Shown here one piece after another: positions 8,390 through 38,258 of a stretch of 64,000 nucleotides of DNA. A program made the position numbers and the translations under genes. The stretch covers positions 32,832 to 96,831 of the forward strand of contig PKDY01000014.1 in assembly GCA_002862755.1 (NCBI GenBank), given 5' to 3'. The stretch comes from Flavobacteriaceae bacterium (GTDB taxonomy: Bacteria; Bacteroidota; Bacteroidia; Flavobacteriales; Flavobacteriaceae). The notes below the pieces were generated by a model. It was given only the letters and a program-made list of their open reading frames with translations. It did no database searches and had not been told where the DNA came from. Each line of letters begins with the position of its first letter. Within the stretch, counting starts at the first letter, position 1.

Positions 8390-8462
8390 TTATAGGTAGA
8401 AATACCTGTTTTGGTGTCACCTATTGAAATTAATGATTGGGAATTGAGAATGGTGGAAATAA

Positions 8463-8559
8463 AAATAATATATTTGAAAAACGCTAGTTTGTAGCGCCTA
8501 TATATCTAAGATTAGATAGATTGGAGCTACGTAGTAGCTTATATATACTAGTTGGTGGC
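8463..8559 (+). promoter_or_regulatory. Leader-like element upstream of the first cassette run (TATATTTG box plus hairpins, ends GTTGGTGGC)
   Basis: AAAAATAATATATTTGAAAAACGCTA...TATATACTAGTT shared with the copy at 13655-13750; each precedes a run of cassettes. Confidence 0.5.
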
Positions 8560-8601
8560 AAGCTTAACACCAATCGGTAGACAAACAAAAAACAATTTAA
8601 A

Positions 8602-9369
8602 ATGGCAATAAGTACAAATTCAATAATTCACTATACGAAAAGTTTAGATAATTTATTGCAAATCTTAAAAAAGGGTTTTTCTCTTAAATATTGCAAGGAA
8701 GATTTCTTTTGGAAACAGAAAAAACTAAGATATGCGTATCCAATGATTTGTTTTTGTGACATTCCACTTTCTGAAGTAAAAAAACATCTTGACTCTTACG
8801 GTCATTATGGAATTGGATTAAAGAAAGATTGGGCTGTAAATAAAGGTTTAAATCCAGTATTATATTTAGAAAAGGAATCATCATTATCTGAAACATTAAT
8901 GCAACAAATAATGAGATTTGACAAGAACAAAAAAGAATTGAAAACAAACCCAAATACTCCAAAAATCGACGAGGTTTGGAGACAAGAATTAATTACACTT
9001 TGTTCTCATATTAAAAATTATGATGGCGATTTAATTATTAATGGTAAAGAGATTAATAATTATCGGTTTTATGATGAAAGAGAATGGAGATATGTACCAA
9101 CAGAACTAGAACTTAAAGGTAATAAAAGAGCTATTTTACAAGACATATATATTGCTGACAAGGAAAAATACAATAAAGAAGTTGGAAAAATCAAACTTGA
9201 GTTTGATATCGCTGAAGATATTTCATATATCATTGTTAAGGAAGAAAATGACATCCATAAAACATTAGACTTTATAAGTCAGAATTTCAAAAAAACTCTT
9301 TCTGCTTCTGATATGGAAATTCTAATGACTAAAATAATTAGTACTGACCAAATTATAAATGATTTTTAA
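8602..9369 (+). CDS. AbiGi-family abortive infection antitoxin-like protein
   Basis: [71 protein letters not shown] matches the AbiGi-like family as remembered. Confidence 0.65.
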   Translation: MAISTNSIIHYTKSLDNLLQILKKGFSLKYCKEDFFWKQKKLRYAYPMICFCDIPLSEVKKHLDSYGHYGIGLKKDWAVNKGLNPVLYLEKESSLSETLMQQIMRFDKNKKELKTNPNTPKIDEVWRQELITLCSHIKNYDGDLIINGKEINNYRFYDEREWRYVPTELELKGNKRAILQDIYIADKEKYNKEVGKIKLEFDIAEDISYIIVKEENDIHKTLDFISQNFKKTLSASDMEILMTKIISTDQIINDF

Positions 9370-9382
9370 ATAAAAGCCAGCC

Positions 9383-9512
9383 GCTAACAAGCGTTTGGTA
9401 AGATTGCGAATTTTGTTGTAAATTCACGTTTACATTTCGCAAGAAATTTTATCTTTAACAGAAAATATTCAGTTCCGTAGCTCGCAACTGCCACAAATAG
9501 CAAAACGTTAGC
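9383..9512 (+). repeat. attC-like imperfect palindrome, family alpha copy 1 (130 bp)
   Basis: GCTAAC...TTGCGA...TCGCAA...GTTAGC; near-identical to 10379-10508 and 18007-18136. Confidence 0.65.
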
Positions 9513-9540
9513 CGTTATATTACCAAAAAATCTGCAAAAA

Positions 9541-10383
9541 ATGAAATTTTCGAAAATATTCATATTACTAATTTTACTTAATTATTTTGAAATATATTCG
9601 CAAGAAAAGGTCATTGAAAAATATGAAAACGGAAATCTAAAATTTGAAGGATACGCAAGAAACAATGTACTTGATAGTATTTACAGAGAATATTACGAAA
9701 ATGGAAAAATAAAAGCAGAAGGGTTTTACAAAGATTGTAAGTATGAAACAAACAGAATCAAAATTTATGTTGCTGGTTGCGGAGTTGGACAAAAAACTGA
9801 TAGCTTAACTTTGGGGACAAGACACGGAAAACTTAAAACATTTTACGAAAATGGAAAATTGAAAAGCGTTTCAAATTTTCACTGCGGTTTACGTCAAGGT
9901 AACTTTTATGATTATTATGAGAATGGAATTATAGAAACTCAAGAGTTTTACTTTGAAGACGAACTTAAATCTTCTCAATATTACAATGAACTTGGAATTA
10001 TTCAAGAAACCGAAAACATAGAATATAATTTCAAAAAAACTCGTAATTATAAAACGACACTTCATAAAGAATTTTATGAAAATGGAGATTTGAAAATAGA
10101 AAATAGAATTGTCGAAGAAGAAAATGATATTGAAACTGAATATTATAAAGAGTATTATCAAAACGGCTTTTTAAAAATTGAAAAAACTCTAATTAACAAT
10201 TCTAAAAATGACGTTTACCGAGAATACTATGAAAATGGAAATGTAAAATATGAAGGTAAGTTTAAAAATGACAAACCAATTGAAAAGCACTATTTTTACA
10301 AAGAAGATGGAAGAATTGACAATATAGAAATGTGGAAAAAGAATAAACTAATTCCATTAAAAGAATATAAATACAACGGCTAA
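9541..10383 (+). CDS. Secreted MORN-repeat (YwqK-like) protein
   Basis: Signal peptide; repeated YYENGxxKxEG motifs. Confidence 0.75.
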   Translation: MKFSKIFILLILLNYFEIYSQEKVIEKYENGNLKFEGYARNNVLDSIYREYYENGKIKAEGFYKDCKYETNRIKIYVAGCGVGQKTDSLTLGTRHGKLKTFYENGKLKSVSNFHCGLRQGNFYDYYENGIIETQEFYFEDELKSSQYYNELGIIQETENIEYNFKKTRNYKTTLHKEFYENGDLKIENRIVEEENDIETEYYKEYYQNGFLKIEKTLINNSKNDVYREYYENGNVKYEGKFKNDKPIEKHYFYKEDGRIDNIEMWKKNKLIPLKEYKYNG

Positions 10384-10508
10384 CAGGCATTTAGCGAGAT
10401 TGCGAATTTTGTTGTAAATTCACGTTTTCATTTCGCAAGAAATTTTATCTTTATCAGAAAATAATAGGTTCCGTAGCTCGCAACCTCACCAAGTACTAGA
10501 ACGTTAGC
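10379..10508 (+). repeat. attC-like imperfect palindrome, family alpha copy 2 (130 bp)
   Basis: GCTAAC...ATTGCGAATTTTGTTGTAAATTCACG...TCGCAACCTC...GTTAGC; same length as copies 1 and 3. Confidence 0.65.
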
Positions 10509-10529
10509 GGCAAGCTTAAACCGATAAGA

Positions 10530-11153
10530 ATGATTAAAAATATTATCATTACTATTTCTCTTCTTTTAATCTCATGTTCGAAAGACAAACATAAGATTGA
10601 AATATACACATCACCTTATAGATTCAACAATCTAGAAGGAATTCAATTATCGAAACACTTTGAAAATGAGATTAAAAATGATGCTGATTTTTTAAGAAAA
10701 TTTGGCGCTAATACAACTTTTGATACTTTAAACAATGATATTATTTTTGCCGGGAAATTCAATTTTGTCAGTACTAAATTAAATAAAGAACCGACGATAT
10801 CAGACGAAGAAATCTTGATGTTAGATTTAGACAAAAACGAAATTATTTTTTCTGAATCAGGTAGAAAACAACTAAGTAAACTAAAAGGAAGTTTATATGG
10901 TATTCAATTCATTATGACCGACAATAAAAAACCAATAATGACAGGTTACTTATGGAATGATTTTTCACCTTATTGGTCTAATTGGAATACTATTTCTTAC
11001 TCCACAGATTTTAATAAAAAAAAGAAAAATAGAATTTTTAAAGGAATTGGAAGACAAGATTTGTTGGGACAACCTATAAATTTCTCAAATTATACAGATC
11101 TTTTGATTGCATTTAAAGAATCTAATCGCTTAAAAGAAAAAGCTAGCCGCTAA
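10530..11153 (+). CDS. Putative lipoprotein, unknown function
   Basis: SLLLISCSKDK lipobox; single-gene cassette. Confidence 0.65.
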   Translation: MIKNIIITISLLLISCSKDKHKIEIYTSPYRFNNLEGIQLSKHFENEIKNDADFLRKFGANTTFDTLNNDIIFAGKFNFVSTKLNKEPTISDEEILMLDLDKNEIIFSESGRKQLSKLKGSLYGIQFIMTDNKKPIMTGYLWNDFSPYWSNWNTISYSTDFNKKKKNRIFKGIGRQDLLGQPINFSNYTDLLIAFKESNRLKEKASR

Positions 11154-11309
11154 CAGTGGTTTTGCTAAATTTGGACTTGAGTGTGTGTTTGGAAAAGTTT
11201 GTGCTCGCACTTTTAGTATAAAAATTCACGTTTTTCTTTCACTCTTTTCTATATATTTGTAAGCAACAGTAACAAAATTCGCACAACATAAAGTCGATAG
11301 TACCTTATC
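11149..11309 (+). repeat. attC-like element, family beta copy 1 (about 161 bp), degenerate right end
   Basis: CTAACAGTGGTTTTGCTAAA...TGCTCGCACTTTT...TATATTTGTAAGCAACAGTAACAAAA; related to 16424-16585 and 18625-18782. Confidence 0.5.
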
Positions 11310-11326
11310 GACAAGTTTAAAAATCG

Positions 11327-11863
11327 ATGAAAATAGAACTTCAATTTAATGAAGAAATTTACAAAAAGCAGATAGAATTGCTTTATAAAATAGGCTATGG
11401 GAGAAAAAGAAAGTATCTTAATAATTCTAATTATTTAGGAATTATATTTGTTTTTTTAGGCACTATTGCAGTTTTAGGTAATGGAAATATTGGATATCTT
11501 TTTATCTTAATTGGTCTATATAATTTGATTGCTTATTATAACTTTTATTTTAAACTGAAAAAAATAAATAGAAATGTTGAAGCTGAAAAATTAAATACTA
11601 TCAGAGAATTTTCGAAAAATCCAAGAGTAGTATTTGAATTTAATCATGATGATTTTATCTATTCAGATTATAAAACGAATCTCAAAGTTAATTGGGATGA
11701 ATTTTTAACTTTCTTTGAAAAAAATGAAAACATATTCCTTATGTCTAAATCTTTTCAACCTTTTATTTTTGGAAAATCTGAAGTCGGAAACGAAATGTAT
11801 CATGAAATTATAAATTTTGTGGAAACAAAAATGAAAAGACTACCCCATAATAATCTTTTTTAG
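11327..11863 (+). CDS. YcxB-like membrane protein
   Basis: Two central TM segments followed by FEFNHDDFIYSDYKTNLKVNWDEFLTFFE.. Confidence 0.55.
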   Translation: MKIELQFNEEIYKKQIELLYKIGYGRKRKYLNNSNYLGIIFVFLGTIAVLGNGNIGYLFILIGLYNLIAYYNFYFKLKKINRNVEAEKLNTIREFSKNPRVVFEFNHDDFIYSDYKTNLKVNWDEFLTFFEKNENIFLMSKSFQPFIFGKSEVGNEMYHEIINFVETKMKRLPHNNLF

Positions 11864-11925
11864 CAATTACTAAACTCTTTCAAAGAACTCCTTTTCCTAA
11901 AACATCTAAATTTTTACCCCAATAA

Positions 11926-12090
11926 CCTAAAATTTTACCTCAAGGACCTAAACGTTTAGGTTGGAGACCTAAAATTTTAGGTAAGAGACCCAAAATTTTA
12001 CGTAGGGAGACGTAAAATTTTACGGTAGCAGACGTAAAATTTTACGTTCAGGACCTAAAGTTTTACGTACAGGGACGTAAAATTTTAGGT
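11926..12090. repeat. Phased array of about 8 TAAAATTTTA-core palindromes, 21-22 bp period
   Basis: CCTAAAATTTTACC / CCTAAACGTTTAGG / CCTAAAATTTTAGG / CCCAAAATTTTACG / CGTAAAATTTTACG (x2) / CCTAAAGTTTTACG / CGTAAAATTTTAGG starting at 11926, 11947, 11968, 11989, 12011, 12033, 12054, 12076. Confidence 0.9.
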
Positions 12091-12184
12091 TTTTTCATGT
12101 ATTTAACATATTTATAACACATTTCTTACAATTTATGGCATATCATTTGTAAATAGTTTCTTATAACAAATTAATAATACAAAT

Positions 12185-12682
12185 ATGTCATTAAACAATT
12201 TAGGAGTATACCACATTACTCCAGCACAGAAACAAGCTATTGACGATGCTTTGGCGAGCATTGAAGCGAATTTAACTTCGGTTACTCAAAACTTATCTAA
12301 CGATGACCGTCAGAAGTTTGGTAGCATTAATGAAACCAATAAGTTATTGGTAAACAAATGCCGCGAATTTCAACAAACGCAAAGTAGCTTGGCTTCTCCC
12401 GATGTGGATTGGGTAGAATTTGAAGCCGATTTTCAAGATCGTCTTTTTGCCGATACCCGTTTAGACCGTTTGGCAACGATTACACGCATGTTGAGTGACT
12501 TTAAAATTGTACACGATTACGACAATTACCAAGATGCCCTCACCGATTATGATTTTAGTAAGTACAAATCCACAACTAAAACTCCTGGTTTTACTGGAAA
12601 AGTGGACGAAATGAGACAGTTTTTCCCAAATACCAGTGCAAGTAGTACATTGGTTACCAAAAATAATACTACTACCGAGTAA
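12185..12682 (+). CDS. hypothetical protein, 165 aa
   Basis: Intact ORF downstream of the palindrome array. Confidence 0.65.
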   Translation: MSLNNLGVYHITPAQKQAIDDALASIEANLTSVTQNLSNDDRQKFGSINETNKLLVNKCREFQQTQSSLASPDVDWVEFEADFQDRLFADTRLDRLATITRMLSDFKIVHDYDNYQDALTDYDFSKYKSTTKTPGFTGKVDEMRQFFPNTSASSTLVTKNNTTTE

Positions 12683-12819
12683 GGGTAGTTTTTAAATAAT
12701 CCTGTTTACTAGTTTGTTGTTGAATTATTTGTAAAGGAGTGTCGTAAAGGCACTCTTTTTTTGTTTGTACAACTTTTAATTTGTTTTTGAATTCTTACTA
12801 ATTATTTGAACTGAGAGGT

Positions 12820-12965
12820 ATACCAGCTAATGGGATGCTTATACTTCGACAAGCTCAGTACAGGCTTTATGACAAGATTGAGAATAGTATTTTATTAAAA
12901 AATATACTACTTAGTCACAAATTTTCACTACAATAATGTCACCCTGTAAGGGTCTCATAAGTAAA
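12820..12965. repeat. Interspersed repeat, copy A (TAATGGGATGCTTATACTTCGACAAGCTCAGTACAGGC ... TCACTACAATAATGTCACCCTGTAAGGG)
   Basis: Shared blocks with 13340-13475, 13490-13560 and 22053-22210. Confidence 0.75.
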
Positions 12966-12978
12966 GTAAAAACATGAG

Positions 12979-13320
12979 CTATTCTTTAATAAATCGATGA
13001 TTTAAAAATTCGAAATTATAATTATAAGAACGAATCAATTCTATTTTTCTTTCTCTTTTCCAATTTTTCAATTCTTTCTCTCTTTCAATAGCTAAATGAA
13101 TCCATGAAAATTTTTCGTAATAGACTAGATTACCTACAGAATATCTAGCTACAAAAGTATTGGTTTTGTTTTTTATTGCTTCTAAATGTTGTTGCAGTCT
13201 TACCGTTAAATTATTGGTTACTCCAATGTAAAAAGTATTTCGATGTTTATTCGTTAAAATATAAACATAATAGGTGTATGATCCTTCATTAAAATGTTGC
13301 ATGGCGAATAGAATAAGCAT
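12979..13320 (-). CDS. GIY-YIG nuclease-domain protein
   Basis: YYVYILTNKHRNTFYIGVTNNLTVRLQQHLEA. Confidence 0.85.
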   Translation of the reverse strand: MLILFAMQHFNEGSYTYYVYILTNKHRNTFYIGVTNNLTVRLQQHLEAIKNKTNTFVARYSVGNLVYYEKFSWIHLAIEREKELKNWKRERKIELIRSYNYNFEFLNHRFIKE

Positions 13321-13339
13321 TAAATATAATACTTTTTTT

Positions 13340-13475
13340 GATCTTCTAATGGGATGCTTTCAGCATGACAAGATGGTGGGGAATATTTTTTTATTAATAT
13401 AAACATAGTTTAACCACAAACTTTCACTACAATATTGTCACCCTATAATCCCGAAGCTTCGGGATCACGTAAGAT
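13340..13475. repeat. Interspersed repeat, copy B
   Basis: CTTCTAATGGGATGCTTTCAGCATGACAAGATGG...AACCACAAACTTTCACTACAATATTGTCACCCT. Confidence 0.75.
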
Positions 13476-13489
13476 TTTAAATATACGTT

Positions 13490-13562
13490 TTACCAGCTAA
13501 TGGGATGCTTATACTTCGACAAGCTCATTACAGGCTTTATGACAAGATTGTGGGGAATATTT
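13490..13562. repeat. Interspersed repeat, copy D (partial)
   Basis: TACCAGCTAATGGGATGCTTATACTTCGACAAGCTCATTACAGGCTTTATGACAAGATTG nearly identical to copy A left half. Confidence 0.75.
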
Positions 13563-13654
13563 TTAGAAACACAATTTCTGATAATTATTTTATTACCGCT
13601 AATTATAAAATACATATTGCTGAATACATAAATTACAAGATGATTTGTAAGTAG

Positions 13655-13750
13655 AAAAATAATATATTTGAAAAACGCTATTTAGTAGCGCCTATACACC
13701 TAATATTAGGTAGATTGGAGCTAAGTAGTAGCGCATATATACTAGTTATG
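13655..13750 (+). promoter_or_regulatory. Second copy of leader-like element
   Basis: AAAAATAATATATTTGAAAAACGCTATTTAGTAGCGCCTATA...GGAGCTAAGTAGTAGCGCATATATACTAGTTATG, homologous to 8463-8555. Confidence 0.5.
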
Positions 13751-13762
13751 TGCAAGCTAAAA

Positions 13763-14266
13763 ATGAACAAATTATCCATACTCATCATTTTCATATTTTC
13801 AATCAATTTCTCCATTGGACAAACTGTTAATTTTGAATTAATTCAATTTAACGGACTAAATTTCAAATCTTCTAAAAAAACAATCACTGATTTGTTCAAA
13901 GAAAAGGCCCAAGTATTTGAACCTAATTACGAATGTGGATTTTTGTCAAGTGCTGAACAGGGAGTGGAATATCAAACAATAGATTTTGGATACATAAAAT
14001 TTACCGGCAACGACCAAGAAAACTATTTAATTGAAAAAGTCGATTTTGAATTGAACAAATTAGCTACAATTAAATATAATGGACATGAATTAAGTGGGCA
14101 AACTAGCCCTGAGCAATTGATTGAAATTTTTGGAAGTGAATTATCGGAAAGGTTGGCTGACTTTGACGATGTGATAATAATTTTTGGAAAAAATTCTGAC
14201 GATGGAATCAGACTTGAATTTAAAAATAACAAACTGATTACATTTGAATACTGGTCTCCATGCTGA
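13763..14266 (+). CDS. Secreted hypothetical protein
   Basis: ORF with signal peptide MNKLSILIIFIFSINFSIGQ; listed start 13715 lies inside the leader element. Confidence 0.65.
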   Translation: MNKLSILIIFIFSINFSIGQTVNFELIQFNGLNFKSSKKTITDLFKEKAQVFEPNYECGFLSSAEQGVEYQTIDFGYIKFTGNDQENYLIEKVDFELNKLATIKYNGHELSGQTSPEQLIEIFGSELSERLADFDDVIIIFGKNSDDGIRLEFKNNKLITFEYWSPC

Positions 14267-14280
14267 AAATAAAAAGCCAG

Positions 14281-14412
14281 CACATAAGACCGTATATAGT
14301 TTATTGCTACGGAATTTTCTGCCGAAAATTCCACGCCAATTTGCTATCTTCGGTCTCAGCGGCAGAAAATCATAACTGATTTTCCGCAACGAGCCATACA
14401 CAAAACATTAAC
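14281..14412 (+). repeat. attC-like intercassette element
   Basis: CACATAAG at left complements TTATGTGC at the 5' end of the same cassette; internal inverted repeats. Confidence 0.45.
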
Positions 14413-14421
14413 CATAAGCAT

Positions 14422-14928
14422 ATGAATAAACTTAAGGCAAACCTAAAATATTTAGGGTCATTTTTTAAATCTAATTGGGAATTCAAAGATTATCCATTAG
14501 AAATTTGGAAAAATACAGAATCTGAGCAAAAAGAGTTTAATTATAGAGCTAAGTTTACAAATTGGTGGAATTTAATTGCTTTTGGTGAAACCAAATCTAT
14601 CGCTATTAAAAACTTAAAAAAAGAATTTGAAGAATTTAAAAAAAATAATTCCAAAATTCCAAGACCTGGAGCAAAGGTTCCTATTGTATTTTCCAAATCT
14701 GATAGGATTGAAAAATATGAAAACATAGCAGTTAATTTTTTTGATAAAATAATTGGATTAAGTTACTATGATTGTTTTGTTTCAGATTTAACTTCATTAC
14801 ATGATTTCGATTTAGCAAATGAAGAAATTTTAAGAAAAATCAAATTAGAATATAGAATAACTCCTAAAAATGAAGATTATTTCTTATCAGACATTTTTGA
14901 ACAAATAAATGAAAAAGCCATTGATTAA
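14422..14928 (+). CDS. hypothetical protein, 168 aa
   Basis: Single-gene cassette ORF. Confidence 0.6.
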   Translation: MNKLKANLKYLGSFFKSNWEFKDYPLEIWKNTESEQKEFNYRAKFTNWWNLIAFGETKSIAIKNLKKEFEEFKKNNSKIPRPGAKVPIVFSKSDRIEKYENIAVNFFDKIIGLSYYDCFVSDLTSLHDFDLANEEILRKIKLEYRITPKNEDYFLSDIFEQINEKAID

Positions 14929-15000
14929 CATCGGCTAATATATTATGGCTTGGTAATGGTCTACGCCACTACTTGTAGCCGCAAACCGTTGGCAATAATT

Positions 15001-15699
15001 ATGAAACAAATAACCATTATATTAATACTATTGTTAGCAAATTCAACTTTTGCTCAATTCCGTTTTTCTGACTTGGATTACATTAATATTGAATCAAGCT
15101 ATCTAAATGGGGAATTTGGTTTTAGTAAAACATCCGAATTCCAACTAATTAATAAGTTTTGTAATGACTCAATTGATTGTTACAAATATGATGATCCGAC
15201 TACTTTAATCGGATATTGGAATGTTAATGATAAAGTCAAAATTGAATTTCATTACACTGAAGCACCAAGTGACGACCCAACATTCATTGCTATCTTTAAT
15301 GGAAAAATAATCTTAGAAGAAGCTGGATCAACTCTACACTTTAAAGGGAATATACTTTATATAGAAGGGAACGCGAATTCATACTTTAACAAAAAAAGAA
15401 AATTTCAATTTATTGATAATAGTTACCAAGAAGTAAATCAACCTTTCTACCACATCGGAATAAAAGGATTACTCAACTATCCCATACAAATTTATAAGAC
15501 GGATAAGTTTATAGAAAAGGTTGCCAATTTACCTAAAGGCTACGAAATAGAGGTGTTGATAGGTCAGACAGGAGGAGAATATAATGACTTAGAAAAAGTA
15601 TTAATTAAAACAGAATTTGGTTTAATTGGTTGGTTTAATTTTAAAGAAGTAGCTTTTGGGAAACCTCTTATTGACGGACTTCATTATCACGGTGATTAA
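15001..15699 (+). CDS. Secreted hypothetical protein
   Basis: Signal peptide MKQITIILILLLANSTFAQ; listed start 14950 is in the preceding element. Confidence 0.65.
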   Translation: MKQITIILILLLANSTFAQFRFSDLDYINIESSYLNGEFGFSKTSEFQLINKFCNDSIDCYKYDDPTTLIGYWNVNDKVKIEFHYTEAPSDDPTFIAIFNGKIILEEAGSTLHFKGNILYIEGNANSYFNKKRKFQFIDNSYQEVNQPFYHIGIKGLLNYPIQIYKTDKFIEKVANLPKGYEIEVLIGQTGGEYNDLEKVLIKTEFGLIGWFNFKEVAFGKPLIDGLHYHGD

Positions 15700-15708
15700 A
15701 AAACTATT

Positions 15709-15860
15709 GCCAACAATGTATAAGCGCAATAACGGCAGATTCGACTACCCTTCGACAAGCTCACCGCTTGCTAGAATCCTCTTGGAATTGCTAACGCCAG
15801 TGCTTAACCGAAAATTATTAACTTCAAACCCGTAACTGACAGTTATACGATACCGTTAGC
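15709..15860 (+). repeat. attC-like intercassette element
   Basis: GCCAAC...GTTAGC; left arm TATTGCCAAC is the exact complement of GTTGGCAATA at the start of the same cassette (14988). Confidence 0.55.
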
Positions 15861-15883
15861 AGCAACCTTAAACCGAATCTTGG

Positions 15884-16411
15884 ATGAGAAAATTTATATT
15901 AATCTTGCTTATAGTTTCCATTAATTCATATGGACAAAAATGCGGATTCGAGATTGACAAACAGAATATAATAGAAAATAAAGACTTAGATTATTTTCTT
16001 GAAAAATTTGAAAAAGAGAAGTTTGAAATTACCAATAAAAAAGAAAGCATTCCGAAACATATAAACAAGCAGTTAAAGTGTTTAGCAAATGGCTTTACAA
16101 TCGCAAATCCAAATAAAAAATATCAAAGTAGCGATGTTGTTTATGGAAGTAAAAAATTAGCCGACCGAGGTTTAGTGTTTTTAGCAAAAAGTGAAAATAC
16201 TTTAATTCTTTATTATGGAATTTCTTCTGGGCCCGGAATAAGTTCCAAGTATCTTTTTATAGATTATGATTCAAAAGGAATTAGAAAACTATGGTGTGGA
16301 AATGAGTTGGGAATCTATAGAAATATGAAAACTCTAGAAGATATTACAAGGCAAATTAAACTATATCGAGATAATTTTTTAGGGTTGCAAAGTGGAATAG
16401 TTTCTTTCTAA
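15884..16411 (+). CDS. Secreted hypothetical protein
   Basis: Signal peptide MRKFILILLIVSINSYGQ. Confidence 0.65.
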   Translation: MRKFILILLIVSINSYGQKCGFEIDKQNIIENKDLDYFLEKFEKEKFEITNKKESIPKHINKQLKCLANGFTIANPNKKYQSSDVVYGSKKLADRGLVFLAKSENTLILYYGISSGPGISSKYLFIDYDSKGIRKLWCGNELGIYRNMKTLEDITRQIKLYRDNFLGLQSGIVSF

Positions 16412-16423
16412 GAAGGGCAGCTA

Positions 16424-16585
16424 CCAACAGCGGTTTTGTGAAAGCGTTGTTTGGGTGTTTATCGGGAGGAGCCGGTGCTTGCACTTCTCTCCTTTTATTC
16501 AACATTTTTCTTTCAAACTTTTCGGTATATTTGTAAACAACAGTAACAAAAATCCCCAACTTCTTAAAGCTTCAAAACGTTATGG
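16424..16585 (+). repeat. attC-like element, family beta copy 2
   Basis: CCAACAGCGGTTTTGTGAAAGCGTTGTTTGGGTGTTTATCGGGAGGAGCCGGTGCTTGCACTTC..TATATTTGTAA..AAAACGTTA; near-identical to 18625-18782. Confidence 0.65.
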
Positions 16586-16610
16586 CTCATTTTAAAAGAC
16601 GACACGACCA

Positions 16611-17303
16611 ATGCAAATTGACAAAGAATTAAGACATAGAATCGGACTTGCACTAAATGAAGCAACCTTACTTGGAGTTGAGTTTGACAAGGAGAAAAAT
16701 TTGGTTGCTTGTTCATTTGCGTTGGTTGCTATGGACAAGGATGGAAATGTTCCAAAAGACAACCATTTTTTGTTTATTTTCAAACCGGTTGGACGATTTG
16801 TTACTTCTTTACGAAATGGACATTGGGATGATAAAGATGCTACGATTGATTATTTTGAACCTAACGATATTTTGACCAAGATTAAAAGTTTTAATGGTCA
16901 GTCGATTTATGGGTGGGATTTTGTCAATTGTGGAGATGAAGATTTTAATAAATGGAAAGATAGATTAAGCTTCGATTATTCAACTGGTGAAACTATAGGA
17001 CTAGCTAATACAATTGATTTATTTCAAGAAGGATTTGAACGGCATATTGATATTAGAATATGGTTTGATGACTTTGAAATTTTGACACCAAAGTATGAAC
17101 CAGTTGACTTGGAAGAATTCTTAGAAAATGGGAAACGTGGTTGGGATGCAGTTTACGCAAATAACAACAAAATGGGCAATTTTGGGATTATTCCAGCGAC
17201 AACAGAAAATGAGCAAAAGTTAAAGACTGTAATGAACAATTTGACAGGAGAACAGCAACCAAGAAGTTGGTGGACAAAACTAAAAGACAAATTTAAAAGC
17301 TGA
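16611..17303 (+). CDS. hypothetical protein, 230 aa
   Basis: Single-gene cassette ORF; no recognised motif. Confidence 0.6.
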   Translation: MQIDKELRHRIGLALNEATLLGVEFDKEKNLVACSFALVAMDKDGNVPKDNHFLFIFKPVGRFVTSLRNGHWDDKDATIDYFEPNDILTKIKSFNGQSIYGWDFVNCGDEDFNKWKDRLSFDYSTGETIGLANTIDLFQEGFERHIDIRIWFDDFEILTPKYEPVDLEEFLENGKRGWDAVYANNNKMGNFGIIPATTENEQKLKTVMNNLTGEQQPRSWWTKLKDKFKS

Positions 17304-17477
17304 AGATGGAAAGAAAAACGATCAATGTCACGGGTTTTGTTGCGTTAGGCGCGTTGACTTACACACTTGAAGCATTGTGCTTCTATTGAAATTTAGTAAT
17401 AAATGAAGCTTTGTGCTCCTAAACCCGCCCGAATGTAAATCCCGAAAACGTTACCAGTAATTTTAAAAACCCGTAAA

Positions 17478-17999
17478 TTGAAGAAGATATTTTACCCAAG
17501 AATACTTTTCCCGACCATAAAATTTATTTTTGCAATGTCTAGCGTAACGATGTTAGGTTATGTATTTTTAAAAATATTTGGAAAGTCAATGACAAATCTA
17601 AAAACAAGTGTTTTATTTTCAGCATTTTTCTTCATCTTGTTTATTGGTTATTTTACATTTCATTTATTATACTTCTTTTGTTTCTATTTTAAATATGTTG
17701 TTATTGAGAAAAACACTCTTTCAATATTTGAGCTAAAAAATTTAAAAATAACTAAAGTCTATTTTGATGAATTGTTAGGTTATTCAAAATCTGAAGTCTA
17801 TTTTGGAAAATATACATGGAAATCTAAATCAATAATAATTTATTATAAATCAGGAAAAGTATCTGAAATAACTAGTAGTTTTGTTTCAAACGTACAACTT
17901 TTGGAAAAAGAATTAAAGAATAGAAAAGTAAAAAACTTTGGATTTGAATCCTATAATACTGGCTGGTTTTATCGGAAATATATGTTTACAAAAAAATAA
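17478..17999 (+). CDS. hypothetical membrane protein
   Basis: Two N-terminal TM segments. Confidence 0.6.
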   Translation: MKKIFYPRILFPTIKFIFAMSSVTMLGYVFLKIFGKSMTNLKTSVLFSAFFFILFIGYFTFHLLYFFCFYFKYVVIEKNTLSIFELKNLKITKVYFDELLGYSKSEVYFGKYTWKSKSIIIYYKSGKVSEITSSFVSNVQLLEKELKNRKVKNFGFESYNTGWFYRKYMFTKK

Positions 18000-18006
18000 A
18001 ACTACT

Positions 18007-18136
18007 GCTAACAGACTTTTGGCAAGATTGCGAATTTTGTATTAAGTTCACGTTTACATTTCGCAAGAAATTTTATCTTTAACAGAAAATAATCGGTTCC
18101 GAAGCTCGCAACCTCACCAAGCGTGGGAACGTTGGA
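18007..18136 (+). repeat. attC-like element, family alpha copy 3 (130 bp)
   Basis: GCTAACAGACTTTTGGCAAGATTGCGAATTTTG...CGCAAGAAATTTTATCTTTAACAGAAAATAATCGGTTCCGAAGCTCGCAACC...AACGTTGG. Confidence 0.65.
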
Positions 18137-18185
18137 AGTAATGCGGTCAAATGTGCGAAAATGAGACTAATAAACCTGAGAAATA

Positions 18186-18614
18186 TTGAAATACAATTTT
18201 TTAAAATCTACTTTAATCTTTTGCGTAGTCGGATTTTTTATTCCTGGATTTACTGCAATTTTATTATTAGGAACCCAAATGTTAATTACTAAAATTGGAA
18301 TCGAATGTTCCGATTCGTGGATAATAATTTGGTTTATAACTTGGATTGGAATGTTACTTTTACCTTTTTTGTTTATTAAAAATCTAAAAAACATTAAAAC
18401 GCAACAATCAATAAAGACCAAACTTATACTCTTTAATTTATTAGAATACATTTTCATCCAAGCGAGTCTCGCATCATTTTTTACAAGTGGCAAAACTTTA
18501 TGCTATGGCTCTGATGGACAAAATGGATTAGAATTTGCTTTCGCAGGTTGGTTAGCTTTGCCAATATTATTAATTTTTAGTTACATCTTTAAAATTTTAT
18601 CAGACAACAAATAA
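18186..18614 (+). CDS. hypothetical membrane protein
   Basis: Multiple TM segments; single-gene cassette. Confidence 0.6.
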   Translation: MKYNFLKSTLIFCVVGFFIPGFTAILLLGTQMLITKIGIECSDSWIIIWFITWIGMLLLPFLFIKNLKNIKTQQSIKTKLILFNLLEYIFIQASLASFFTSGKTLCYGSDGQNGLEFAFAGWLALPILLIFSYIFKILSDNK

Positions 18615-18624
18615 AGCACTACTA

Positions 18625-18782
18625 CCAACAGCGGTTTTGTTAAAGCGTTGTTTGGGTGTTTATCAGGAGGAGCCGGTGCTTGCACTTCACTCCTATTTTA
18701 AACATTTTTCTTTCAAACTTTTCGGTATATTTGTAAGCATTAGTAATAAAACTTCTCGCCTTCGCAAAGTGGTAAAACGTTA
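18625..18782 (+). repeat. attC-like element, family beta copy 3
   Basis: CCAACAGCGGTTTTGTTAAAGCGTTGTTTGGGTGTTTATCAGGAGGAGCCGGTGCTTGCACTTC..TATATTTGTAA..AAAACGTTA. Confidence 0.65.
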
Positions 18783-18803
18783 TTTAATAAGATTTGAATC
18801 CGT

Positions 18804-19373
18804 ATGAAAATATTCATTTTAATCATTTCTTATATTGCAACAATATGTTGCAAATCAGAAATAAAAAACCCGAATAACATTAAAGAAAATATTGTTCAAA
18901 AAAATAAAGAAACGGAAAAAGGTAATATTTTTTTTGACTATGATGAAATTGACTTTTATAATATTAATTTCGAAGAAGGCAGAGCTATTGAACTCATTGA
19001 AAATAAAGAAAAATCAAACATTGGTAAACTTAAATATGAGATAATCCTTGGTGAAACTCCTGAAAACATTAAAGATACAGCCTTCCTTAAACATATAAAA
19101 GAAGTTGGATTCATACACACGAAAATTGAAACTGATAAATTTAAGTCTATTAATAAAATTTTTATTGAAAAGTATATTAGTGACGATTATGCTTTTGCAT
19201 GTGCTCCTGTATATAGAGATATTCTGATATTTAAAAAAAAAGGTGAAATTATTGGAATTGCAAAAATATGCTTTAGTTGTCAGCAAAATATCATAATTGG
19301 GACTAAAGCAAATACAATAAATTTTGGACATAATGGAGATTATGGAAAACTTCGAAGAATTTTATACCATTAA
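18804..19373 (+). CDS. Putative lipoprotein, unknown function
   Basis: N-terminal MKIFILIISYIATICCKSE lipobox-like. Confidence 0.6.
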   Translation: MKIFILIISYIATICCKSEIKNPNNIKENIVQKNKETEKGNIFFDYDEIDFYNINFEEGRAIELIENKEKSNIGKLKYEIILGETPENIKDTAFLKHIKEVGFIHTKIETDKFKSINKIFIEKYISDDYAFACAPVYRDILIFKKKGEIIGIAKICFSCQQNIIIGTKANTINFGHNGDYGKLRRILYH

Positions 19374-19381
19374 AAACAACA

Positions 19382-19543
19382 GCTAACTGGGGTTAAAGTA
19401 AATGGCTAGGTCAGTACTTTTCCGAAAACTGTTGCACCAGTTCGCGCAAAGTGCTCGAGTCTCCTAAAACTCCATGAGTAGTTTTGTACTTGTAATCTTT
19501 TGGCTTAAATTTACGCAACTGATACAAGCGGCAAAACGTTAGC
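19382..19543 (+). repeat. attC-like intercassette element
   Basis: GCTAACTGGGG...GGCAAAACGTTAGC. Confidence 0.55.
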
Positions 19544-19646
19544 AGTAATTTGAGAAATCACTTTACTCAACGAAAAGCATACCTTCCAAATTTTTATTTT
19601 TAAGATAAAAAAGGCAGAATTATATTTGAGAAATTACATACAACTA

Positions 19647-20531
19647 ATGAAATATCTACTAATTATATCCATTTTTCTTTTATGCAAATTCAGTTATGGA
19701 ACTGGACAAGTCCCTGATTATTTGGTTTATAAAGGCGATACAATTGCGATCTTTTCAAATCCGCTTGAAAAGTATTTTGAACTAACTGGGAAAAGAGAAT
19801 TAATAGATTTTGTTGGCTGTGGTTCAACTGCTTGTTGGAGAGGCTACAAAGCTATTTGGGAATTAAAAGACGATAAACTCTATTTAGTACAAGTAACCAG
19901 TTGTCACAAAAGTTGTGGTCTCGAAATAAAAAACGCTAACTTAAAAAAGATGTTTGGAACTGAGACTGTGTTTGCGGATTGGTTCACGGGAAAAATAATA
20001 GTTCCTCAAGGAGAAAGAGTTCAATACATTCATATGGGTTATGCTTCAATTTATGAAAAGGAACTTCATATTTCTTTTAAATCTGGAATTAGAACAAGTG
20101 AGAAAACGATTTCAAACGAAAAAATCGTTAACAAAATCAGACTTGCAATAAGACAAAGAGAAATAGCAAAAAAAATTCAAGACACTCTATATTATCAAGT
20201 CAAAAAGTATATAGTTTGGGACACAATTAAAACACCACGTTTTGACTTATGTGATGAAAAATATATTTTGACTTTTAATAAAAAAGGAAAACTAAAAAAA
20301 GTATGGGTTAACTGGGAAGGAGAAACTTTTAGAGAAAAAATAGATGATTGGTGGTGGAATATTACTGATGATAGGAAATGTAGGAAAATAATAAAAAAAG
20401 CTCTTAAACCTATTAATATTTCACATCTCGATTTACCAAATAAGAAAATAGAAATACCATTTGAAATATTTTACCAAAAAGAAACAGGAGAATTGGAATT
20501 AAGGAAAGAAACGTGGATGGAAGAAGAATAA
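19647..20531 (+). CDS. Secreted hypothetical protein
   Basis: Signal peptide MKYLLIISIFLLCKFSYG; listed start at 19626. Confidence 0.6.
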   Translation: MKYLLIISIFLLCKFSYGTGQVPDYLVYKGDTIAIFSNPLEKYFELTGKRELIDFVGCGSTACWRGYKAIWELKDDKLYLVQVTSCHKSCGLEIKNANLKKMFGTETVFADWFTGKIIVPQGERVQYIHMGYASIYEKELHISFKSGIRTSEKTISNEKIVNKIRLAIRQREIAKKIQDTLYYQVKKYIVWDTIKTPRFDLCDEKYILTFNKKGKLKKVWVNWEGETFREKIDDWWWNITDDRKCRKIIKKALKPINISHLDLPNKKIEIPFEIFYQKETGELELRKETWMEEE

Positions 20532-20537
20532 AAACTA

Positions 20538-20668
20538 TTGCCAAAAATCTGTATAATTCATTGCTAATTAGAGCTTAATTACGAAAGTGCTCGCGGGCTT
20601 TCTATCTGTGATTTATTTGCTAACTTTAGTACTTAAACACACAACTACTCATAAACGAAACCGTTAAC
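20538..20668 (+). repeat. attC-like intercassette element
   Basis: TTGCCAAAA...AACCGTTAAC, about 130 bp between co-oriented ORFs. Confidence 0.45.
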
Positions 20669-20704
20669 CGTAATAATTCAGAACGAAAACCTTAAAAAGA
20701 ACTT

Positions 20705-21229
20705 ATGTATAAGAAAACCCAAAAAATGGTATTCCTTTTTTGCATTTTAGCAATTTCAGTTTTCTTGCTTTTTAAATTTAATGAGAGAATTAAGATTATA
20801 GAATTAACTTCAATTAATGTAGAAACAGAAAACCAACTTGACATCGAAAAAGTAATCGTTTATCAAGGTTATTACACAATAAACCGAAAAAGTGATGCTG
20901 AAATGTTCGGTAATAAATATCACGAAGTTGTGTTTAACGGAAATGGAACAGGAAAAATCAAAACTGAATATGGTGAAAATGATTTTTTAGTAACCTATGA
21001 CAATAAATACTATTTTCAATTTAGACAAATCTGTACAAACGATAACGATTATTATAAATACAATCTCAAAATTCTAAAGAAAGCTAACAAAATTTATTTA
21101 AAAGCAGACATTGACGGCGGAATGAAATTTGAAAGACAAATGAACCTGATAAGCGATGCTGGAAAATTGAGATGTAATAAAATCATAGATGATGAAAAAG
21201 GTCATTACAATGGATTGGAATTAGATTAA
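20705..21229 (+). CDS. Membrane-anchored hypothetical protein
   Basis: N-terminal TM; single-gene cassette. Confidence 0.6.
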   Translation: MYKKTQKMVFLFCILAISVFLLFKFNERIKIIELTSINVETENQLDIEKVIVYQGYYTINRKSDAEMFGNKYHEVVFNGNGTGKIKTEYGENDFLVTYDNKYYFQFRQICTNDNDYYKYNLKILKKANKIYLKADIDGGMKFERQMNLISDAGKLRCNKIIDDEKGHYNGLELD

Positions 21230-21368
21230 AATTACTAATGCTAAAAGCGGTTTAACTTTATAGTTTTATCATAGGATTTTAAAAGAAAGTTTATATTTGT
21301 TAACTTGTTATTGACTCTGTGCTACTATCTATTGCCTCGGTCACTTATAAACAATTTGAAATCCAGAC

Positions 21369-22058
21369 ATGACTACAATTCGATTAGAAATATTTCCTTC
21401 CTTTAACCCTTGCTGCTATTTTCAGCTGGAGGAACAACAATCTTCATATAATTTGACTGTTCTGATTAGCTCAAGTGACAAAAATAAATGGGAAGTCAAA
21501 CTCAACAATTCAAACGAGCATACTACTATTGAAACCATTTCTAAAAAAGTAGTTACTGATAAAATTAAAGATGACAGAATTATTCTCGATGGAATTGGAC
21601 TTAAATGTACAGTTGTTGAAAATGGTAAAACCCATCAACATGAATTTAGTAATCCCGAATTTGGAACTGATGAGTTAACACTTGTAAATTATTTTTTTGA
21701 TTTAGTTCAAAAAAGTATTAAGCATCCATCTTTTATTAATTATATTGAACTTATTGAAGGGTATTTTGTAAATACTTTTCCTGTGAAAATTTTTGAAGAG
21801 AATCCATTAAGGTTACGAATCTATGGTTTTCTTTCAATTAACAATAAAGAGAGTCTAACATCAATAATTGATAAAATACTAGAACAAGATGAACTCACAA
21901 TAGACATGACCAATTTTATTGGAATGGGAACAATTTTATATGAATGTTTTCAACCTTTAAGTAAAATACCCAAATTGACTTTTTTAGCCAATGAAAGTGC
22001 ATTAATACATCTTGAAGCAATGGGATTTGACAAAAACTTAATTTTACTTGTTGCATGA
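21369..22058 (+). CDS. hypothetical protein; 3' end runs into interspersed repeat copy C
   Basis: Intact ORF; stop codon lies at the left edge of repeat homologous to 13300-13475. Confidence 0.55.
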   Translation: MTTIRLEIFPSFNPCCYFQLEEQQSSYNLTVLISSSDKNKWEVKLNNSNEHTTIETISKKVVTDKIKDDRIILDGIGLKCTVVENGKTHQHEFSNPEFGTDELTLVNYFFDLVQKSIKHPSFINYIELIEGYFVNTFPVKIFEENPLRLRIYGFLSINNKESLTSIIDKILEQDELTIDMTNFIGMGTILYECFQPLSKIPKLTFLANESALIHLEAMGFDKNLILLVA

Positions 22059-22210
22059 CGAATTGAATAAGTAATAAATATAATATTTTTTGATCTTCTA
22101 ATGGGATGCTTACAGCATGACAAAAGGGTGTTGAGTACTTTTTATGAATACTAAACATAGTTAAACCACATTTTTTTATCACAATAGAGTCACCGTACAA
22201 AGGTTTCAAT
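22053..22210. repeat. Interspersed repeat, copy C
   Basis: TTGCATGACGAATTGAATAAGTAATAAATATAATATTTTTTGATCTTCTAATGGGATGCTTACAGCATGACAA matches 13301-13370. Confidence 0.75.
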
Positions 22211-22439
22211 GAAATATTTTTTTAAAAAAATTGTCATTGCACAACAGTTTTTTTTTGTCTATATAAGGATAAAATTAATTTATAAGTTGCAATACTACTT
22301 TCTCTTTACTGAAGGAAAATCAGTTGCTACAAGAAAAGGTTTGTTATATTTGTAATGGCTTGGTAATAATTCAATACAACTACATATAGCCGCAAATGGT
22401 TATCTTTAAGCCAAACAAACAACATAAAAACACAAATTA

Positions 22440-38065: not shown

Positions 38066-38142
38066 GATTATAATATTAAATTACAAAGGTAGTAATAAGC
38101 TAAGAATTTGATGCGTTAACAAGTACTAAAAAAGTGATAATT

Positions 38143-38258
38143 TAGCCCTGATGGCAGTGAAAATCCTTTTTTTAGAGGTACAATTTTAAATTTGTTTGGA
38201 CAAAAGTTGGTCTAACAATCTAAAAAAAGATTGCAACGAACAGCAGGAATTGCGGAGC
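38143..38258 (+). ncRNA. Candidate structured intergenic element (possibly a Flavobacteria-type conserved RNA/repeat)
   Basis: AGCCCTGATGGCAGTG..ATCCTTTTTTTAG....CTAAAAAAAGAT..CAACGAACAGCAGGAATTGCGG, nested complementary arms. Confidence 0.45.

Follow-up and report, generated by a model that had tools for sequence, protein, structure and literature searches.

Self-pairing cassette ends in integron-like arrays of Flavobacteriaceae and a XerA-type recombinase linked to such arrays

The two ends of individual cassettes match each other in two gene arrays of a Flavobacteriaceae bacterium, and this own-end matching is confirmed here for a window of 64,000 nucleotides (contig PKDY01000014.1), the whole stretch of DNA analyzed. 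In relatives, the own ends pair as well, the sites form a bottom-strand hairpin with covariation and strand-specific wobbles, the arrays are strictly linked to a recombinase gene, and cassettes are duplicated unit by unit. We consider it likely that the window arrays belong to an integron-like system whose cassettes are moved as circles. On a broader proposal our judgment is evenly divided: that Bacteroidota hold a further type of integron whose XerA-type recombinase, lacking the IntI I2 domain, would recombine folded bottom-strand cassette sites by reading G•T wobbles instead of extrahelical bases, and would maintain superintegron-sized arrays in many Flavobacteriaceae. Own-end pairing itself is already known for integron cassettes; the recombinase system linked to it here appears to be new, and widespread in flavobacteria and relatives.

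Results

Cassette ends match within units

The window contains two arrays, each with an attI-like leader at its start. Arm matches out of seven refer to positions 4-10, and A/G to position 11. Array 1 consists of:

8461..8553, +, attI-like leader 1, start of array 1; palindromes ending ...AGCTACGTAGTAGCT-TATATATACTA before GTT; 87% identity to leader 2
8551..9506, +, cassette U1, gene 8602-9369 (AbiGi family; PF10899, 5.8e-36); arms GTTGGTGGCAAGCT / GTTAGCGGCTGGCT, A/G at 11
9386..9509, +, attC-like site of U1; groups by sequence with sites 10382 and 18010 and those on contigs C25, C10 and C26 of the same genome
9507..10502, +, cassette U2, MORN_2 protein 9541-10383 (PF07661); arms 7/7, A/G at 11
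10382..10505, +, attC-like site of U2; recurs genus-wide, which the gene body does not (24/61 genomes match)
10503..11292, +, cassette U3, gene 10530-11153; arms 6/7
11152..11295, +, attC-like site of U3; GTC at its degenerate right end; resembles sites 16426 and 18627
11293..11863, +, unit U4, gene 11327-11863; own 3' arm not found, no recognizable 3' site

Array 2 consists of:

13655..13747, +, attI-like leader 2, start of array 2; GAGCTAAGTAGTAGCGCATATATACTA before GTT
13745..14406, +, cassette U5, gene 13763-14266; arms 6/7, A/G at 11
14286..14409, +, attC-like site of U5; covariance model R1, 67.6 bits, E 2e-10
14407..14987, +, cassette U6, gene 14422-14928; ATT in place of GTT, A/G at 11
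14927..14990, +, short attC-like site of U6; weak R1 match, E 0.87
14988..15854, +, cassette U7, gene 15001-15699; arms 7/7, A/G at 11
15712..15857, +, attC-like site of U7; R1, 46 bits, E 2.6e-6
15855..16578, +, cassette U8, gene 15884-16411; arms 4/7, A/G at 11
16426..16581, +, attC-like site of U8; 87% identity to U11 site
16579..17449, +, unit U9, gene 16611-17303; arms without match
17317..17452, +, site of U9, left boundary uncertain; assigned by sequence only
17450..18130, +, cassette U10, gene 17478-17999; arms 6/7, A/G at 11
18010..18133, +, attC-like site of U10; about 90% identity to U1 site and to one site on C25
18131..18778, +, cassette U11, gene 18186-18614; arms 6/7, A/G at 11
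18627..18781, +, attC-like site of U11; 87% identity to U8 site
18779..19537, +, cassette U12, gene 18804-19373; arms 3/7, A/G at 11
19385..19540, +, attC-like site of U12; 88% identity over 90 bp to a C25 site
19538..20662, +, cassette U13, gene about 19647-20531; arms 5/7, A/G at 11
20543..20665, +, attC-like site of U13; R1, 63.2 bits, E 1.4e-9
20663..21245, +, cassette U14, gene 20705-21229; arms 4/7, A/G at 11
21369..22405, +, last unit, gene 21369-22058, degenerate site near 22356; site like that of U6 by eye, own arms not found

Units U9, U12 and U4 are decayed.

A preliminary description had quoted six pairs of complementary ends, all of which we found where it had placed them, and had named a permutation of partners as the test that could refute own-unit pairing. 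We ran this permutation with fixed anchors, the GTT after the preceding element and the AAC opening the unit's own element, and shuffled partners 200,000 times among 13 window units. Own ends beat shuffled ones over positions 4-15, with 105/156 matches versus 65.9±6.4 (p≤5e-6; highest shuffled score 94), and did so both at positions 4-10 (64/91 versus 40.0±4.7) and at positions 12-14 (31/39 versus 15.5±3.2). Positions 16-25 were near the shuffled level (38/130 versus 31.4±4.1, p=0.07), and the own-end match therefore ends at 14-15. The seven units outside the good examples quoted, when pooled, gave 45/84 versus 31.6±4.3 (p=0.002). When compared with the following unit's 5' arm, the 3' arm did not exceed background (mean 4.75/12, versus 8.08/12 for own arms). 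Moreover, position 11, which the preliminary description had missed, has A on the 5' side and G on the reverse-complemented 3' side in 11/13 units. Complementarity had been called not evident for four units, those of genes 11327, 14422, 16611 and 18804. This stands for 16611, with 2/7 matches at positions 4-10, and for 11327, which has no recognizable 3' element; 18804 is a poor fit (3/7), and the claim fails for 14422, whose unit starts with ATT (14407) and fits the rule in that register.

In relatives, 14 arrays supplied 147 units, whose own ends paired in 916 of 1029 cases at positions 4-10, versus 438.6±20.3 for shuffled partners, and integrated neighbors matched at 37%. The position-11 wobble was present in 128 of these units. 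Only a circle brings the two ends of a unit together, and pairing is own-unit specific both in the window and in relatives. The reading of the units as cassettes with a circular intermediate is supported; the circle itself we infer.

A XerA-type recombinase is linked to the arrays

The array-linked enzyme is a XerA-type tyrosine recombinase whose best sequence and fold matches among solved structures are XerA, IntI4 and XerH. Array recombinases have invariant catalytic residues and form a clade of their own, separate from IntI. They lack the IntI additional domain, as the KDR-HxLRH spacing is 58-59 aa in 29/30 enzymes, versus 100 aa in every measurable IntI, IntI1 included, and the alignment of IntI4 to the array enzyme splits across the additional-domain region. 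The enzyme also begins with a beta-alpha extension of about 80 residues, for which six N-terminal pieces gave nothing convincing against Pfam; among the Foldseek matches listed for it there were recombinase parts only.

Cassette arrays adjoin the recombinase gene in relatives and on contig C25 of the window's own genome; among Flavobacteriaceae, Algibacter onchidii has an intact recombinase together with a long array. We found attC-like sites in 19 of 20 recombinase-centered loci, and all of them (123/123) lay downstream of the recombinase and in its direction. The stretch from its stop codon to the first cassette holds, in relatives and on C25 alike, a leader formed by a palindrome and ATATA(N)ACTA before GTT (also ATATAAC-A before GTT); these attI-like leaders are near-perfect palindromes. 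The stop-to-cassette distance, 33-205 nt in 19 well-scored loci, is only descriptive because the boundary came from the own-end rule, and loci with unreliable boundaries were not counted (L086, L087, L090, L093, L096, L097, L101, L102, L021, L056, L057, L064 and L074). Beside the window arrays there is no recombinase, and all tyrosine recombinase matches in the genome are on other contigs: the array-type enzyme adjoins a third array, and separate recombinases of 300-302 aa lie on C43 and C1. Sites were present in 132 of 151 family genomes; 99 genomes had both sites and recombinase, 5 the recombinase only, 33 sites only and 14 neither, so that the two co-occur (Fisher p=6e-5). The five recombinase-only genomes are without R1 sites.

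Sites fold on the bottom strand

The sites retain AAC and GTT, and their positions 4-7 are mostly not RRRY, T at 5 and C at 6 being commonest. Their inner stem has 16 pairs, 12 of them with compensatory changes, and includes two near-fixed G•U pairs that are valid on the bottom strand only; 295 wobbles favor the bottom strand versus 8 the top. The extrahelical bases of canonical attC are absent, and fixed bottom-strand G•T wobbles are present. When the bottom strand was folded, 11.7 of 14 arm bases were paired in the circle form and 4.0 in the integrated form, and the circle form was the stabler in 129/140 sites. Within the circle form, the bottom strand was stabler than the top in 137/140. 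An exact two-fold symmetry, with 3+7+wobble in the outer and the inner stem alike, was rejected, as the inner wobble lies one position earlier. For the window genus, an IR-based site finder returned zero sites, and R1 detects only some sites, poorly.

These features bear on the possibility that the recombinase uses double-stranded sites, as Xer/dif does, and that the hairpin is incidental. The kinship with XerA, IntI4 and XerH, the palindromic leaders and the absence of the I2 domain would all suit such an enzyme. However, the strand bias of the wobbles and the compensatory stem changes would be superfluous for double-stranded recognition, and constraint acts on the own ends, whose pairing requires single strands. 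We consider this explanation unlikely.

The arrays differ from canonical integrons

Self-pairing of cassette ends over 9-11 nt has been described for integrons (PMC2727003), and we found it again in class 1 cassettes and, among other Bacteroidota, in arrays with a canonical IntI, with little or no pairing past 7-8 nt in the dfrA1, dfrA12, dfrB1 and IMP cassettes. The window arrays could thus be CALINs built and moved by a canonical IntI, the more so as some IntI-bearing genomes also have R1-matched sites. However, no IntI above the TIGR02249 cut-off was found in the window's own genome, nor in its family or order among 300 genomes of the phylum, and the array enzyme, at 203 bits, is under this cut-off (265), besides lacking the additional domain and falling in a separate clade. 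Furthermore, a left-strand bulge occurs in 4% of sites here versus 86% in IntI arrays. The A/G rule at position 11 was rejected as a general integron trait, being found in 0/64 units of IntI arrays and absent from class 1 cassettes. An ordinary integron is therefore improbable.

Cassette ends are preserved in diverged copies

Cassette homologues from different genomes, with bodies 79-89% identical, retain an unchanged 10-nt end sequence at both ends, and in copies within an array or across genomes similarity begins and stops at or near GTT, as in unit-wise duplication. Although inverted ends of about 14 bp around each gene could be terminal repeats of small transposons, or identical ends copied during cassette formation, with no role in recombination, this is very improbable: transposon copies share ends, whereas here the ends vary between units (87 distinct 7-mers among 147) and match within one, both stay identical even where bodies are only 79% identical, and the mismatch at position 11 stays fixed, which points to selection.

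Discussion

In the integron-like system that we propose, recombination at a single site would let each cassette leave or enter an array in circular form. Closure of the circle would bring the first 14 cassette bases next to the attC-like element, so that the bottom strand could fold into one long hairpin: about 16 bp within the element would form the inner stem, and the outer stem would consist of GTT, the seven nucleotides specific to the cassette, a T•G wobble and three more pairs. The enzyme acting on this folded strand is most likely the XerA-type recombinase, which would join the strand to the attI-like leader that follows its stop codon and precedes the first cassette. The window arrays, which have leaders and no enzyme gene, would be served in trans by the enzyme from another contig. 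Against the model stand these arrays, which have no recombinase and include decayed units, the 33 of 151 genomes in which sites, and no recombinase, were detected, and the five with the enzyme and no R1 sites, although R1 is a poor detector of sites in the window genus.

In IntI, the I2 helix is held to have enabled single-strand recombination of attC (PMC7790495). Its absence here also counts against the model, since some other feature must replace the missing reader. We infer that the strand is marked by G•T wobbles instead of extrahelical bases. The end code of each cassette points to an asymmetry in which circles fold well and integrated sites poorly, and insertion would therefore be favored over excision. 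If the model is true, one of the largest environmental phyla would commonly capture genes in the integron manner, and these arrays would offer a natural test of hairpin single-strand recombination without the domain credited for it in IntI.

Comparison with known systems

The array enzyme resembles XerA and archaeal-type Xer proteins (NF040815, PDB 5hxy, 4a8e), its best matches, in its core-binding and catalytic domains. It differs from them in an extra N-terminal domain without a Pfam match and in being tied to cassette arrays rather than to a single dif-like site; being tied to many sites, it also falls outside Xer/dif chromosome resolution. For insertion-lacking members of the integron-like subgroup of simple tyrosine recombinases, the sections of PMC8138268 consulted describe no arrays or hairpin sites. 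Like CALINs, the window arrays consist of sites and cassettes, with at least two attC-like sites and no adjacent recombinase; unlike CALINs, they have attI-like leaders, and their sites are of the XerA-type rather than the canonical attC design. With IntI integrons, the system shares arrays of one-gene units in a common direction, hairpin sites with AAC and GTT at their borders, an attI-like start, self-pairing past 7 nt in the circle form and a bottom-strand bias. Unlike IntI integrons, it has an enzyme with the N-terminal extension and without the IntI additional domain, an array that follows the recombinase gene in the same direction, a core of GTT and seven variable nucleotides that departs from strict GTTRRRY and from RYYYAAC...GTTRRRY, a T•G wobble fixed at position 11, and G•T wobbles where canonical sites have extrahelical bases.

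Cassette ends in the window pair with their own partners

The window holds two arrays, neither of them adjoined by a recombinase gene, and a third lies on contig C25 of the same genome.

Features of the window and of contig C25
8551 to about 11863: array 1, beginning behind leader 8461-8553
13745 to about 22405: array 2, beginning behind leader 13655-13747
C25 25611-26669, minus strand: tyrosine recombinase (locus L021)
8602-9369, plus strand: AbiGi-family protein in the first cassette behind leader 1, a putative phage-defence function nearest the attI-like site
11900-12090, plus strand: palindrome cluster of the type ACGTAAAATTTTACGT / CCTAAAATTTTAGG, after the last gene of array 1
12979-13320, minus strand: GIY-YIG nuclease gene (PF01541, 1.4e-17) between the two arrays
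Around 12830, 13350, 13500 and 22100: repeated element TAATGGGATGCTT...GACAAGA
38140-38254, plus strand: Flavo-1 RNA (RF01705, 71 bits), which fits a flavobacterial genome

On C25 the recombinase lies directly upstream of the array and is codirectional with it, and the array's sites reach about 90% identity with window sites. The two window leaders are 87% identical and consist of palindromes, then ATATATACTA at the GTT boundary; the C25 leader, which ends in GGTCTGACGAAGTCAGAC-ATATAAACAA before GTT, shares this design.

The preliminary description had proposed that the 5' end of a unit (one gene plus its 3' attC-like element) complements the beginning of that unit's 3' element. We compared these arms in 13 window units, counting the 5' GTT as positions 1-3, with anchors set independently of the match (the GTT closing the preceding element, the AAC opening the own element) and with partners shuffled; the register of the 14422 unit was corrected (ATT at 14407, AAC ending at 14929). 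At positions 4-15, own arms matched at 105/156 positions versus 65.9±6.4 for shuffled partners, beyond the highest of 200,000 shuffles (94). The signal was present at positions 4-10 (64/91 versus 40.0±4.7) and 12-14 (31/39 versus 15.5±3.2), and the shuffle test found none past position 15. Moreover, the 3' arms of window units did not match the 5' arms of the units that follow. The proposal is therefore confirmed, own ends pairing better than those of other units, and it extends to the units first rated weak or not evident, which as a group lay above chance (p=0.002, shuffle test). For the MORN cassette, the site found matches in 24 of 61 genus genomes and the gene body had no such recurrence, as would be expected of cassettes.

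Relatives share the arms, the sites and their linkage to the recombinase

Homologues of the array recombinase were found in 104 of 151 family genomes, and sites matching R1, the array-site covariance model, in 132 of the 151 (site counts per genome being lower bounds); the two co-occur (99/5/33/14, Fisher p=6e-5). We fetched 20 loci and located sites by the inner inverted repeat only; the arm comparison covered 147 distinct units from 14 arrays. Own arms matched at 916/1029 of positions 4-10, versus 438.6±20.3 in within-array shuffles (maximum 517), while arms of integrated neighbours matched at only 37%. These 7-nt arms comprise 87 distinct sequences. Position 11 practically never matched: in 128/147 units the 5' arm has A there and the reverse-complemented 3' arm has G, giving a T•G wobble on the bottom strand and an A/C mismatch on the top strand. 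Pairing resumes at positions 12-14 and ends there.

R1 matches in the 20 recombinase-centred loci (19 with sites) all lay downstream of the stop codon on the same strand (123/123; 0 upstream). In the 19 loci with a clear boundary, the first cassette begins 33-205 nt after the stop, preceded by a palindrome and a short box (ATATAAC-A or TTATCCATAT); these values are descriptive only, because the boundary was located with the own-end rule. Some arrays are about 60-70 kb long. The same arms and A/G rule occur in Algibacter onchidii, Winogradskyella ursingii, Zunongwangia mangrovi, Flavobacterium odoriferum, Arundinibacter roseus and a Carboxylicivirga, so the system extends outside Flavobacteriaceae. 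One relative, G014, carries a second array far from its recombinase gene (contig C1, 2.22-2.26 Mb), as with the window arrays; arrays lacking a recombinase may therefore be served in trans.

Several copies have edges close to the unit boundaries. Near-identical cassettes occupy separate places in an array at L070, where the similar stretch begins 13 nt ahead of the first GTT and extends 13 nt past the next, and at L068 (-3 to +17 relative to the GTT boundaries); one cassette found in two genomes is 86.5% identical, with edges at -12 to +4. Three cross-genome homologue pairs, whose bodies are 79-89% identical, keep the same 10 nt at both ends, which suggests that the arms are under constraint over and above the gene's. 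Separately, L075 (2.8-7.8 kb) has repeat copies, 99.6-99.8% identical, of a block of two cassettes together with their sites.

Sites are asymmetric between strands

An alignment of 54 bottom-strand sites gave a 16-bp stem in which 12 pairs changed on both sides. Two positions of the stem hold G•U in almost every site (43/54 and 53/54), and such pairs exist on the bottom strand only. Among 133 array sites, inner-stem wobbles numbered 295 on the bottom and 8 on the top strand, with a left-strand bulge in 4%, compared with 9, 1 and 86% in canonical integron integrase (IntI) sites of the phylum. The array sites thus carry wobbles in place of the extrahelical base seen in canonical attC. When sites were folded using DNA energies, the bottom strand in circle form was more stable than the top strand at 137/140 sites, by a mean of 4.5 kcal/mol, and more stable than its integrated form at 129/140, by 5.5 kcal/mol; the circle pairs 11.7 of 14 arm bases and the integrated form 4.0. 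The window's own sites folded less cleanly than those of relatives.

The array enzyme is distinct from IntI

The array enzyme scores 220.8 bits against NF040815 (XerA-type; cut-off 220) and 203 against TIGR02249 (integron integrase; cut-off 265). Its KDR-to-HxLRH spacing is 58-59 residues in 29/30 array enzymes versus 100 in all measurable IntI, including IntI1; the additional domain by which IntegronFinder tells IntI from other recombinases (PMC9668308) is therefore absent. IntI and array enzymes form separate groups (100/100 and 98/83) in a tree with long branches and an uncertain root, and catalytic residues are invariant across array enzymes. The Flavobacterium aciduliphilum enzyme model (pLDDT 89) matches XerA, IntI4 and XerH, and carries an N-terminal beta-beta-alpha-beta-beta-alpha extension for which we found no Pfam match.

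Canonical IntI exceeded the cut-off in 86 of 300 phylum genomes sampled, all outside this family, with none in the family or order. This frequency (IntI-centred loci L116-L135) is far above what a RefSeq survey suggests for Bacteroidetes (PMC9024848).

Comparison with integrons

According to Bouvier et al. 2009 (PMC2727003), self-pairing in most integron cassettes runs unbroken over 9-11 nucleotides and reaches past the 7-nt R boxes. We recovered this in 15 class 1 cassettes from plasmids, with boundaries curated by hand (positions 8-12: 50/75 own matches versus 26.1±4.1), and in canonical IntI arrays of other Bacteroidota (median contiguous run 10.5, 64 units). Own-end pairing is thus not new by itself, and the early reading of matching ends as those of circular cassettes was right in kind, since integron cassettes do the same.

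At the sequence level, pairing, covariation, strand asymmetry, linkage and unit-wise copies are established for the arrays. We infer that units form circles and react as single strands cleaved at GTT, and that the enzyme serves the window arrays in trans. The circle's bottom strand would fold into an integron-like hairpin, the recombinase would take the outer stem (the own-end arm) and inner stem as two half-sites, and joining to the leader would occur at GTT. In IntI, extrahelical bases dock on the I2 helix, which also prevents the second strand exchange (PMC7790495). The array enzyme, unlike IntI, lacks this helix; its role must fall to another element, for which the N-terminal domain is a candidate, or else the reaction differs.

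Among published open-licence papers, the scope of the search, we found no earlier description of the system; at NCBI, however, NF040815 already bears the name 'site-specific tyrosine recombinase/integron integrase'. Since the IntI domain, extrahelical base and RRRY core were tested for and are lacking, the system does not belong among integrons in the strict sense; we still hold that it works like one.
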